From an uncultured Prevotella sp. (GTDB lineage Bacteria; Bacteroidota; Bacteroidia; Bacteroidales; Bacteroidaceae), in the NCBI GenBank assembly GCA_934215545.1, contig CAKQAD010000002.1:1-64000 (forward strand): 64,000 bases of DNA, in the 5' to 3' direction. This document shows positions 6,845 through 11,928 of the stretch, one piece after another. The notes below the pieces were generated by a model that saw nothing but the letters and a program-made list of their open reading frames with translations, was not told the DNA's origin and searched no databases. The stretch's first letter is position 1. Each line of letters opens with the position of its first letter. The translations under genes and the position numbers were made by a program.

Positions 6845-8119
6845 TTATTTTCTTTTACCGAAATCGGGGTCGATTTTAAGGAATGCTGTAACGATGAATG
6901 TTATAAGGCAGCATGCCATGACAATGATGAAGAACATCTTGTAGCCTACATAATCTTTTATATAGCCCGACATCATGCCAGGTAGCATTAGGCCGAGGTA
7001 TGAAATGCCAGTGCATATAGAATAATGTGAGGTCTTGAATTTGCCATGACTATAGAAAAGCATATATAGTGTGAGCACTGTGAAGCCGAGGCCATAGCCG
7101 AATTGTTCTACAAACAGGCACGACGACACCATTATGATGTCGGCATTTAGGGTGTAGCTAAGATATATGTACACTACATCGGGAAGTGTTATCGCGCAAA
7201 CCATGGGCCATAGCCACTTCTTCATGCCGTCGCGGCTTACGAGCACACCACCCAGTATGCCACCCAGTAGGAGTCCGATCAGTCCTACGGTGCCTTGTGC
7301 TATGCCGTATTCTTCGGGCGTCAGTCCGAGTCCGCCATCGGCATTGGGTCGCATGAGGAATGTCTTTGTCATGGTGTTGAGCAATGCCTCTGGAAATCTG
7401 TAGAGCAAAAGAAACAGCATCACTATTATGGTGTCGCGTGGCTTGAATTTGCAGAAGAATCCTTTAAGCATTGTCAGGAGTTCATGAGCCACATCTGTCA
7501 TGCTTTTTTCTGAACACACATCGTCTTTAGGGTGTGGCATCATCTTGCAATGATACAGATAGATGGCAAGGAACAGTCCGGCAATGGCGTAGAATATCAG
7601 TGTCCATGAATATACTATCGACATGTGCAGCGTATGCTGCAGTAGTCCGGCTGCCGACACCAATGCTCCGTTGACGAATATAACGGCAAGGCGATAGAAG
7701 GTGTTGCGCAATCCCACATATTTGGCTTGGTCGTGTTCGTCGAGTTCTATCATGTAGAAGCCATCGGCAGAGATGTCGTGTGTGGCACTGGCAAATGCCA
7801 TGGCAAACAGGAAGAACATGGTGCCTTGAAACCAAAAGGCCGTAGGTATGGTGAAGGCGATGCCTGCCAATGCGCTGCTTATGAGCAACTGCATGGCAAG
7901 CACCCACCAGCGCTTGGTCTTTAGCAAGTCGATGAATGGGCTCCAAAGCGGCTTCACCACCCAAGGCAGTGCCAGCCATCCTGTGTAGAGACCCACTTCA
8001 GCATCGGTGAGTCCCATCTGCATGTACATCACTATCGACAATGCAGTGACCACCACATTGGGAAGTCCCTCAGCAAAATACAGTGTGGGAATCCATGCCC
8101 ACGGATTTGTCTTCATCAT
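6845..8119 (-). CDS. MFS permease, AmpG-like (first copy)
   Basis: A 424-residue 12-TM MFS protein closer to AmpG than its neighbour. The N-terminus has WIPTLYFAEGLPNVVV, then GWLALPWVVKPLWSPFIDLLKTKRWWV, the characteristic AmpG first-loop pattern. FASATHDISADGFYMIELDE matches the family's conserved helix-4/5 region. AmpG carries GlcNAc-anhydroMurNAc peptides into the cytosol in Gram-negatives. Its start codon overlaps the stop of the SpoIID-containing fusion gene by 4 bases, so the two are translationally coupled. This coupling is the strongest hint that the operon handles peptidoglycan fragments. Confidence 0.9.
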   Translation of the reverse strand: MMKTNPWAWIPTLYFAEGLPNVVVTALSIVMYMQMGLTDAEVGLYTGWLALPWVVKPLWSPFIDLLKTKRWWVLAMQLLISSALAGIAFTIPTAFWFQGTMFFLFAMAFASATHDISADGFYMIELDEHDQAKYVGLRNTFYRLAVIFVNGALVSAAGLLQHTLHMSIVYSWTLIFYAIAGLFLAIYLYHCKMMPHPKDDVCSEKSMTDVAHELLTMLKGFFCKFKPRDTIIVMLFLLLYRFPEALLNTMTKTFLMRPNADGGLGLTPEEYGIAQGTVGLIGLLLGGILGGVLVSRDGMKKWLWPMVCAITLPDVVYIYLSYTLNADIIMVSSCLFVEQFGYGLGFTVLTLYMLFYSHGKFKTSHYSICTGISYLGLMLPGMMSGYIKDYVGYKMFFIIVMACCLITFIVTAFLKIDPDFGKRK

Positions 8120-11100: not shown

Positions 11101-11928
11101 TGTTGTCTTCTGTCCGAGTGCAGAATGCACGGCATCAGCTACTGTACGTTCTCTGTTGAATACGGGGATTACAACACTGGCTTCGTAGTTGAAGTCTTGC
11201 TCGCTGAAGTCGGGCTTTTGGTATATCGAAGTATCTACCAAAGCCCCAATCTTCTCGATGTGTTTGGTAGCTACGCGTTCCATCTCCACCTGCACATCGC
11301 GGTTGCTTGGGTTTACATAGTCGAATTGTTTCTCGCCGCTCTTTCTTAGGTCGGTTTCTATCTGTGTATACAGGAATTCGTTGATGTGCAGTATCTCTGC
11401 TTTTCGGCTTATGAACAGTCTGAGATCGTAGAGTGCTGCCCATTGATATTTGCAATCTGATTGTTTGTCGGCATAGGCATGCAACAGGTCGGAGCGTATA
11501 AGCAAGAGTTGTCCGAAGTCGAAGTCGTTGCGTATGCTACCTTTCTGATAGTCGATGCGTGGATGGCGTTCAATGCTGCCGTTTTTGTTTTCAAAACTAT
11601 CGGAATATACCAGTCCGGCATTGCTGTCGGTAGCCACACATAGCAGTCTTTCGAGTGCATGTAGTCCAAACTCGAATGGTGTGGTGGCGGTGCTCAACAG
11701 CACATATTCGGCATCGGTATGCTTTTCTATAGCGAGCAAGGTGTCGGTAGACAGCAGGTCGTCGACAACAATCACGTTGCAGTCGTTGGCATAATTGTCG
11801 TTACATTCGGTGTTTGTTGTAAGAATGTTTATATGTTGTATTGTTTTGCTTTGTCGTAGTGTCTGCAGTGTATTTTCTATTTGGTCAGTATCGCTGCATG
11901 GCAGAAAGCAGTCTATTTTTTCTCTCAT
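8116..11928 (-). CDS. Fusion protein: glycosyltransferase 2 + DUF4922 (HIT-like) + SpoIID/LytB
   Basis: A 1270-residue multidomain protein. Residues 1-240 look like a degenerate GT-A fold (IDCFLPCSDTDQIENTL, VYSD). Residues 248-480 are a canonical family-2 glycosyltransferase (SVVIPVFNRE, VDNHSTDGT, QLDSDD at 337-342, YGEDYALG). Residues about 550-810 form a DUF4922-type region with RPCFLCEQNRP and GASAPDHMHFQ; the HxHxQ at 642-646 resembles the active site of GalT/Ap4A-phosphorylase branches of the HIT superfamily. Residues 825-1270 are SpoIID/LytB (ELPVESYLESVISSEMS at 924, LKAHAVISRSW, GAGWGHGVGMCQIGAA at 1228). No signal peptide or membrane helix is visible, which is odd because SpoIID proteins usually act outside the cytoplasm. 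It leads an operon with two AmpG-like permeases. The role is unproven. Confidence 0.88.
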   Translation of the reverse strand: MREKIDCFLPCSDTDQIENTLQTLRQSKTIQHINILTTNTECNDNYANDCNVIVVDDLLSTDTLLAIEKHTDAEYVLLSTATTPFEFGLHALERLLCVATDSNAGLVYSDSFENKNGSIERHPRIDYQKGSIRNDFDFGQLLLIRSDLLHAYADKQSDCKYQWAALYDLRLFISRKAEILHINEFLYTQIETDLRKSGEKQFDYVNPSNRDVQVEMERVATKHIEKIGALVDTSIYQKPDFSEQDFNYEASVVIPVFNRERTVADAVHSALGQKTTFKYNVIVVDNHSTDGTTDILKEIAATDNRLIHIIPQRTDLGIGGCWNTAIDDVRCGRFAVQLDSDDLYSTPNTLQRIVDEFHKQGAAMIIGAYRMCNFNLETLPPGLIDHKEWTEKNGPNNALRINGLGAPRAFFTPILRQIKFPNTSYGEDYALGLAFSRKHRIGRIYDELYLCRRWDGNSDAALSIEKQNANNLYKDRLRTLEISARQQLAQGKADTSSDNSLQRFFNRQLEVWNAARQHFRELQNAKIRELTCGEISLKLQYNPARIVSTGASIDNKTIAKRPCFLCEQNRPKEQMTKAVDKNFTLLVNPFPIMPQHFTIPLNNHRPQSIGINYGEMYKLLKAYPTLTVFYNGPKCGASAPDHMHFQAIASGTLPLQTEWPRLCRDADTIVTRDDKNAIVAIRGFAVPIFAIRCTDTTIGEQLFKQLYSTLPMHGGDTEPMMNILAWCDGEEFVSVIIPRKHHRPNCYFYEGDNKRLVSPGALDMAGFIVTPRQDDFKNITAEEALAILQECGLPIDEFNEAIDKLRRIEEGRFANDMHFTGKQPMVSVGIVSGEKICFSLNKPYTAKGNLIDGEQTVEFHEGGILWNGNQYRELTFHPGSNDASFSLHDVTIGVNFHWERKETQTFLGTLRLVVDSDKVCAINELPVESYLESVISSEMSATSSIELLKAHAVISRSWLLSQIEQRRQRQTGEGNNGFFSFIRKDDELIKWYDREDHTIFDVCADDHCQRYQGITKATSPQVQQAINATRGQILMDGNEICDARFSKCCGGVTEEFQYCWENIKKPYLVGIRDLLNSQDGCSGKDIEANTLPDLTIEANAEQWIRTTPKSFCNTNDKHILSEVLNDYDQETTDFYRWHLTYTQEQIKKLLTNKLKIEFGDIVDIVPVERGTSGRISRLKIVGTEHTFTVGKELEIRRALSESHLYSSAFVVDKEDIENGIPQTFHLIGAGWGHGVGMCQIGAAVMGAKGYKYDNILLHYYRGAEIKKIYK

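Follow-up and report, generated by a model that had tools for sequence, protein, structure and literature searches.

A GT2-DUF4922-SpoIID fusion protein encoded beside ampG in Prevotella, a candidate cytoplasmic enzyme of peptidoglycan salvage

The stretch of DNA considered here (the window) comprises 64,000 nucleotides of a contig from an uncultured Prevotella sp. (CAKQAD010000002.1). One of its genes encodes a protein of 1270 amino acids in which a GT-A-like domain, a family 2 glycosyltransferase (GT2) domain, a DUF4922 domain and a SpoIID/LytB domain follow one another, and the stop codon of this fusion gene overlaps the start of a gene for an AmpG-type muropeptide importer by 4 bp (Table 1). 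A sequence-only reading of the window had proposed a triple fusion of GT2, DUF4922 and SpoIID at 8116..11928, and this proved real by its open reading frame (ORF), Pfam and NCBIfam profiles, AlphaFold models and homologues; the + strand reading of the same positions contains 28 stops. The second GT-A-like domain, formed by the N-terminal 240 residues, and the presence of two AmpG-like importers downstream go beyond that reading.

Table 1. Positions in the window of the fusion gene, its domains and motifs, and the two AmpG-like genes
Feature	Coordinates	Strand	Evidence
Whole ORF, 1270 aa, GT-A-like/GT2/DUF4922/SpoIID fusion	8116..11928	-	ORF call and domain profiles
GT-A-like domain, residues 1-240	11209..11928	-	Foldseek, alignment to 2z86, sequence
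GT2 glycosyltransferase domain, residues 245-490	10459..11196	-	PF00535, GT-A fold
DSDD, residues 339-342, metal/nucleoside diphosphate (NDP)-sugar motif of GT2 domain	10903..10914	-	Alignment and motif scan
DUF4922, residues 490-835, Apa2/GalT-type HIT nucleotidyltransferase/phosphorylase fold	9424..10461	-	
HxHxQ, residues 642-646, in DUF4922	9991..10005	-	Alignment and motif scan
SpoIID/LytB domain, cytosolic type (putative), residues 850-1270	8119..9381	-	
E938, SpoIID catalytic-acid position	9115..9117	-	Alignment with solved SpoIIDs
AmpG-type muropeptide importer, 424 aa	6845..8119	-	TIGR00901, 7.1e-46
Second, more divergent AmpG-like major facilitator superfamily (MFS) protein, 446 aa	5489..6829	-	TIGR00901, 1.7e-8

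Pfam matches were obtained to PF00535 (GT2; residues 251-383, E 5e-24), PF16269 (DUF4922; residues 504-648, E 1.8e-65) and PF08486 (SpoIID; residues 917-1035, E 1.2e-23, 83.9 bits against a cut-off of 23), and NCBIfam gave TIGR02669 (SpoIID_LytB) over residues 921-1267 with 165.9 bits against a cut-off of 83.3; the GT2 names from NCBIfam fell below cut-off. Neither PF03702 (AnmK) nor PF26216, which is precomputed on many homologues, was returned by the Pfam scan of the fusion protein. The AlphaFold models had mean predicted local distance difference test (pLDDT) values of 87.3 (residues 1-500) and 86.5 (residues 490-1270).

Residues 245-490 are a GT2 domain by their PF00535 match, GT-A fold and DxD motif. 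Both short motifs singled out in the sequence-only reading were confirmed by alignments and motif scans: the DSDD is unchanged in all 49 rows of the GT2 alignment, with 135 of 136 glycosyltransferase (GT) proteins positive in the motif scan (the sole miss is in L146; labels in L and G denote our loci and genomes), and the HxHxQ is unchanged in all 18 rows of the DUF4922 alignment, with 138 of 146 proteins positive and the eight misses retaining H-x-H-x-Q with other flanking letters. The top Foldseek match of the 1-500 model was 2z86, a chondroitin polymerase with two GT-A domains, over 545 columns, and residues 1-489 align to it, an alignment that is barely tested for the N-terminal part. Like the K4 chondroitin polymerase (K4CP), the fusion has two GT-A domains per chain, but its first one has no DxD, the position reading LSTAT (elsewhere, for example, YTKYT). 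Only one GT site therefore looks active, which rules out a two-site polymerase like K4CP for residues 1-500, and the N-terminal domain looks non-catalytic or divergent.

DUF4922 belongs to the HIT superfamily, in its Apa2/GalT branch, by profile, HxHxQ and fold. A Protein Data Bank (PDB) sequence search gave Apa2 as its only match above noise, and in the alignment H644 matches the Apa2 His replaced by Ala in the diadenosine tetraphosphate (Ap4A) complex 4i5v. Among yeast Ap4A phosphorylase Apa2, GalT and plant GDP-L-galactose phosphorylase, fold and HxHxQ are shared with Apa2, but identity to Apa2 is only about 14-17% and DUF4922 sits in a wall-salvage gene context. The open-licence literature searched names DUF4922 only in connection with plant GGP genes. 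In the SpoIID domain E938 aligns with the SEM/GEM Glu of solved SpoIIDs, a position whose catalytic role is known from SpoIID work; a Glu occupies it in every SpoIID aligned, whether cytosolic-type (56 of 56) or other (19 of 19). The fusion thus has the profile, fold and catalytic Glu of the SpoIID/LytB family.

The protein search scored 7997 proteins, of which the best 120, including the window's own, were taken. These are 1241-1329 aa long with GT2, DUF4922 and SpoIID precomputed in all, and the other 119 are 64-80% identical over 98-100% of length. A genome scan confirmed 569 stretches, and the best 80 loci, nearly all from Prevotella or Prevotellaceae, were analysed. The triple fusion is present in 78 of these 80 and also in a separate branch (L130), which rules out a chance or mis-assembled fusion. 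In 65 of the 80, AmpG follows downstream on the same strand at a distance of at most two genes, and eight more are cut off by the contig end at the fusion.

Wider sampling was based on a first draw of 295 genomes of Bacteroidales, the order to which Leyella lascolaii (genome G001, locus L001) belongs. DUF4922 was found in 73 of them (71 once two weak cases were dropped), in single copy in all but one and mostly as an unfused open frame of some 280-390 aa. We refer to the GT, DUF4922 and SpoIID parts, fused or separate, as the module. The surroundings of the 72 DUF4922 genomes beyond G001 yielded 65 loci with a scorable DUF4922 gene: 32 have a two-domain GT protein, SpoIID and AmpG on the same strand between two genes before and four genes after DUF4922, 24 have some of these and nine have none among the genes scored. 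Where the parts are separate, in more distant relatives, their order is often GT, DUF4922, SpoIID, AmpG. There are also GT-DUF4922 fusions, of about 765-826 aa, and DUF4922-SpoIID fusions, of about 669-787 aa. On a DUF4922 tree of 79 sequences, at least eight changes of architecture are needed among the 78 rows with certain architecture (five for the GT fusion and five for the SpoIID fusion), an approximate count as the tree is a quick one with long branches and changes may be losses; the starred branches alone force at least three changes for the triple fusion, two for DUF4922-SpoIID and one for GT-DUF4922. The split row L042 inside the Prevotella clade could be a frameshift. Three DUF4922-SpoIID fusions (L142, L146 and L148) have no AmpG among the scored neighbours, with AmpG elsewhere in the genome (G299, G117 and G217).

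AmpG and SpoIID are both present in 71 of 71 genomes with a clear DUF4922, by comparison with 108 and 171, respectively, of the 295 overall. The long-insert SpoIID type occurs in 73 genomes, 71 with DUF4922 and only two among the 224 others (G102 and G285), both with AmpG. In a second, phylum-wide draw of 148 genomes AmpG was found in 22 of 22 clear-DUF4922 genomes and 47 overall. Recurrent gene order, several kinds of fusion and co-occurrence in all 71 genomes uphold the earlier proposal that the domains serve one process. That reading had named unlinked genes in relatives as a sign against the proposal, and this was partly what we found, the domains being mostly separate genes in the order, usually adjacent and sometimes not; the link survives because neither AmpG nor this SpoIID type is missing from any of the 71 genomes.

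Hydropathy gives no sign of an export signal or a membrane helix in the fusion, in line with the sequence-only reading, and unfused forms are alike in this. The highest 15-residue mean (2.18, near residue 676) lies within the DUF4922 fold. Unfused module SpoIIDs start nearly directly at the domain (e.g. M-x-EP-x-I-x-VGI), with the first strand motif beginning within 20 residues in 37 of 42; among the remaining five, L141, L158 and L179 have a later Met as the likely start, and L139 and L167 are without the motif and look mis-called. As a control, 20 regions encoding the other SpoIID type were taken from this order; one (100 bases) was a placeholder, which left 19 proteins, and all 19, read by eye, resemble signal-bearing proteins. 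A 15-residue hydropathy mean of at least 1.75 in the first 60 residues was reached by 17 of the 19 controls versus none of the 42 module-type SpoIIDs, although the ranges of the maxima overlap (1.40-2.67 and 0.17-1.69, respectively). The run length of uncharged residues failed to separate the types (8-18 in the 19 exported-type and 4-17 in the 42 module-type proteins), so that the claim about export rests on hydropathy, domain start and reading by eye.

Both SpoIID types have the conserved Glu, a C-x4-CQ element and GHGVG and differ at many other positions, and the module SpoIIDs have conserved features of their own (FHW, FDVCADDHCQRYQG) that are absent from the other SpoIID paralogues of the order. 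A lack of export as an artefact of fusion was rejected given that the unfused forms look alike; it looks like a property of this SpoIID clade and not of the fusion. Characterised SpoIID proteins are extracytoplasmic. By comparison with the family (C. difficile and B. anthracis SpoIID), the fusion has no signal peptide or anchor visible by hydropathy and domain start, and is joined to nucleotide-sugar domains. It is therefore a SpoIID-domain protein and not a classical SpoIID, and from its sequence it looks cytoplasmic.

AnmK handles anhydro-N-acetylmuramic acid (anhydroMurNAc, anhMurNAc) in E. coli, and its presence is anti-correlated with that of the module. In the first draw it was found in 11 of 71 module genomes versus 188 of 224 others, and in the second in 8 of 22 versus 95 of 126 (p 0.0007). 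Among AmpG genomes alone the figures were 11 of 71 with the module versus 28 of 37 without it (p 1e-9) and 8 of 22 versus 24 of 25 (p 2e-5) in the two draws, and 11 of 71 versus 21 of 28 (p 3e-8) when nine weak AmpG genomes were dropped from the first; these plain tests take no account of relatedness, and not all genomes are complete. Few AmpG genomes had neither AnmK nor the module (9 of 108 and 1 of 47). For 66 AmpG genomes placed on an rpoB tree, a Pagel-type test showed the rate of AnmK loss to depend on the module (likelihood ratio test, LRT, 10.9, p 0.0009), with p 0.009 for the full dependent model and p 0.003 without the nine weak genomes; the dependence of module loss on AnmK was not significant on this tree (p 0.07 and 0.16). 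The loss rate of AnmK without the module is estimated at its lower bound, so a modest number of events carries the result. Losses of AnmK cluster on lineages that bear the module.

The closest known counterpart is the ampG operon of Tannerella forsythia, Tanf_08345-08385, given as xanthan lyase, gtf, gtf, lytB, ampG, ybbC and murTKQ (PMC5388701). The sequence-only reading had ranked the fusion as a candidate for an undescribed system, and as stated this gains no support, as that operon already lists two 'gtf' genes and 'lytB' before ampG. Unfused loci share a similar run, best L180 with GT, DUF4922, SpoIID, AmpG, NamZ, a NagX-like gene, a MurK-like gene and MurQ; the assignment of Tanf_08355 as DUF4922 is by operon position alone. 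The gtf, gtf and lytB genes are separate in T. forsythia and one protein in the window, where only the two AmpG-like genes then follow. A wall-fragment salvage pathway and such an operon are hence already known; what appears to be new is the cytoplasmic SpoIID clade, the Apa2-like DUF4922 in such a context, the series of fusions and the relation to AnmK, and no description of the GT/DUF4922/SpoIID module was found in the open-licence papers searched.

Neighbour clusters near DUF4922 in the 65 loci, named from one annotated representative each and not always on the same strand as DUF4922, comprise Golvesin_C (17 loci), NamZ (17), a MurK-like kinase (24), MurQ (18) and a NagX-like membrane protein (9). 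Solved relatives of the MurK-like kinase include 8ow9, a 'Putative novel MurNAc kinase'. The recurrent membrane-type protein of about 389 aa between NamZ and the MurK-like gene (L180:4302-5471) resembles NagX (NF046061, below cut-off) and corresponds by position to the T. forsythia MurNAc transporter MurT. The Golvesin_C protein, of about 1000 aa (L172:5305-8298), mostly lies one or two genes before DUF4922 and may be what is listed as 'xanthan lyase' in the T. forsythia operon; in L180 its gene is at the far end, versus upstream in T. forsythia.

T. forsythia AmpG is reported to import both GlcNAc-MurNAc and GlcNAc-anhMurNAc, where GlcNAc is N-acetylglucosamine, and the latter is usable as sole MurNAc source although an AnmK orthologue is not predicted; its subsequent fate is described by the authors as unexplored (PMC7670621). 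Given that the module, by gene order, belongs to this T. forsythia operon, looks cytoplasmic and tends to occur where AnmK is absent, processing of the imported anhydro-disaccharide is the most economical role for it. We therefore propose, as a tentative reading to which we give not quite even weight, that the fusion is a cytoplasmic peptidoglycan-salvage enzyme acting on AmpG-imported fragments and doing the job of AnmK in many Bacteroidota. The domains, active-site residues, absence of a visible export signal, gene order, fusions, co-occurrence and AnmK-loss pattern all point this way. The earlier suggestion of turnover or re-activation of a wall fragment gains from the AmpG, NamZ, MurK-like and MurQ neighbours in relatives as far as salvage is concerned, with the chemistry that it guessed still conjectural. 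The parallel with AnmK (PF03702) would be one of role, in the handling of imported anhydroMurNAc, and not of family.

The most likely substrate would be GlcNAc-1,6-anhydroMurNAc, with or without peptide, brought in by the adjacent AmpG. SpoIID-fold enzymes form anhydroMurNAc in their usual direction, and the SpoIID domain, through E938, may attack the anhydroMurNAc end by running the lytic-transglycosylase reaction in its ring-opening (reverse or hydrolytic) direction, the same site opening the ring with water or another acceptor. One chlamydial SpoIID is reported to be a muramidase as well as a lytic transglycosylase (PMC9928106), so the family can use water as acceptor. The GT2 domain would move a sugar between fragment and nucleotide and DUF4922, through H644, would interconvert NDP-sugar and sugar-1-phosphate; both kinds of domain handle nucleotide sugars or nucleotides, and their having fused repeatedly hints at an intermediate handed from one to the next. 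In its full form, the proposal is a route of AnmK-independent anhydroMurNAc recycling in Bacteroidota, in which disaccharides imported by AmpG have their 1,6-anhydro ring opened by a cytoplasmic SpoIID clade in physical coupling with a GT and an Apa2/GalT-like nucleotide-sugar phosphorylase, which together conserve the energy of the glycosidic bond as sugar phosphate or nucleotide sugar; this we regard as possible but rather doubtful. The specific scheme that we prefer, though itself unlikely, is nucleotide-coupled phosphorolysis by GT2 in reverse with DUF4922, GlcNAc-(anh)MurNAc + Pi -> GlcNAc-1-P + MurNAc, with UDP as recycled carrier.

Several observations weigh against a salvage enzyme that replaces AnmK. 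SpoIID enzymes cut MurNAc-GlcNAc bonds, and the imported disaccharide is without such a bond; we know of no documented ring opening by a SpoIID. Representatives of NamZ, MurK-like and MurQ proteins had no match among the 157 window ORFs of at least 80 aa, and the curated TIGR00901 cut-off for AmpG was passed in 0 of 295 and 0 of 148 genomes, AmpG matches lying below it throughout. An independent-pairs test gave no support: five pairs were available on starred branches and AnmK differs in at most one, which leaves the AnmK pattern dependent on few events. Genomes without AnmK fall largely within one rpoB clade, in which G093, G102, G148 and G283 have AmpG and neither module nor AnmK. Module and AnmK occur together in 11 genomes of the first draw, all of which also have MurQ, and in 8 of the second, and the control Bacteroides ihuae was positive for both; a clear MurQ is missing from 31 of the 71 module genomes, i.e. 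31 of the 60 with the module only. T. forsythia reached an optical density (OD) of about 0.8 on digests rich in GlcNAc-anhMurNAc-peptide versus 1.3 on mutanolysin digests, and P. gingivalis is without AmgK and AnmK, the suggested cause of its fragment release (PMC7670621); AnmK-less bacteria may simply not recycle.

Some of these points would be accommodated if the module salvages wall fragments without standing in for AnmK, acting on reducing GlcNAc-MurNAc or on longer oligosaccharides in which the SpoIID domain cuts MurNAc-GlcNAc bonds, with the loss of AnmK coincidental with lineage. Known SpoIID chemistry suits chains better than a disaccharide, and the clustering of AnmK absence in one clade together with the genomes that have both fits such coincidence. 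In T. forsythia extracts the main product is GlcNAc-MurNAc, and AmpG is reported to take up both disaccharides (PMC7670621). The dependence of AnmK loss on the module even when the tree is allowed for, and the scarcity of AmpG genomes with neither, argue the other way, and we hold this alternative to be a serious minority possibility. DUF4922 may instead be a GalT-like uridylyltransferase re-activating MurNAc (MurNAc-1-P + UDP-GlcNAc -> UDP-MurNAc + GlcNAc-1-P), with GT2 and SpoIID trimming or rebuilding the chain, which would correspond to the re-activation of the sequence-only reading; HxHxQ and the GalT/Apa2 fold are in keeping with this, as are the 31 module genomes without a clear MurQ, for which catabolism of MurNAc via MurQ is then not the route, but we consider it improbable.

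Slightly less probable again is that a signal is made or destroyed from imported fragments, or another target (protein or lipid) glycosylated, with the link to AmpG a regulatory one. In T. forsythia the operon is controlled by the regulator GppX and is said also to encode enzymes of 'protein glycosylation' (PMC5388701), whereas the presence of AmpG in all 71 and all 22 module genomes and the recurrent MurK-like, MurQ and NamZ neighbours speak against this alternative. Finally, the SpoIID domain could act outside the membrane, the protein being exported by an unrecognised route. This would agree with the site of characterised SpoIID proteins; it is nevertheless very unlikely, as neither the fusion nor the unfused module SpoIIDs show a signal, other SpoIIDs of the order have signal-like N-termini, and the GT2 and HIT domains need nucleotides.

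Peptidoglycan recycling has been described mainly around NagZ, AmpD and AnmK (for NagZ and AmpD, see also PMC9928106). A candidate present in 71 of the 295 genomes of the order would help to close the gap left by AnmK-less use of anhMurNAc in T. forsythia. If salvage by the module is true, it helps to explain how these bacteria reuse imported wall sugars, gives a function to proteins now named merely 'DUF4922 domain-containing' and provides what would be, to our knowledge, the first cytoplasmic SpoIID-type enzymes.

Around the fusion, the window has GT, DUF4922, SpoIID and AmpG together as in T. forsythia, without the NamZ, MurT, MurK and MurQ that follow downstream there; representatives of the NagX-like and Golvesin_C proteins also had no match among the 157 ORFs. 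A phytase-like/esterase-like gene lies upstream in the opposite direction. The window AmpG fails the curated TIGR00901 cut-off (156.7 versus 350 bits) though this is its best-matching model; T. forsythia AmpG, at 27% identity to E. coli AmpG, acts as a muropeptide importer (PMC7670621, PMC5388701). Two AmpG-like genes near the fusion are found in the window and in five of the best 80 loci (L023, L034, L036, L062 and L072). Twenty AmpG proteins near DUF4922 (in L112, L117, L122, L125, L155 and others) are longer, at 590-640 aa, with about 190 extra residues between apparent transmembrane helices 5 and 6 that form a periplasmic loop by helix count in six sequences; the loop is possibly a fragment-capture domain, and the window AmpG, at 424 aa, is too short to have it. 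A GHL10 glycosyl-hydrolase-like protein is encoded near DUF4922 in seven loci, including L121:10356-11882.

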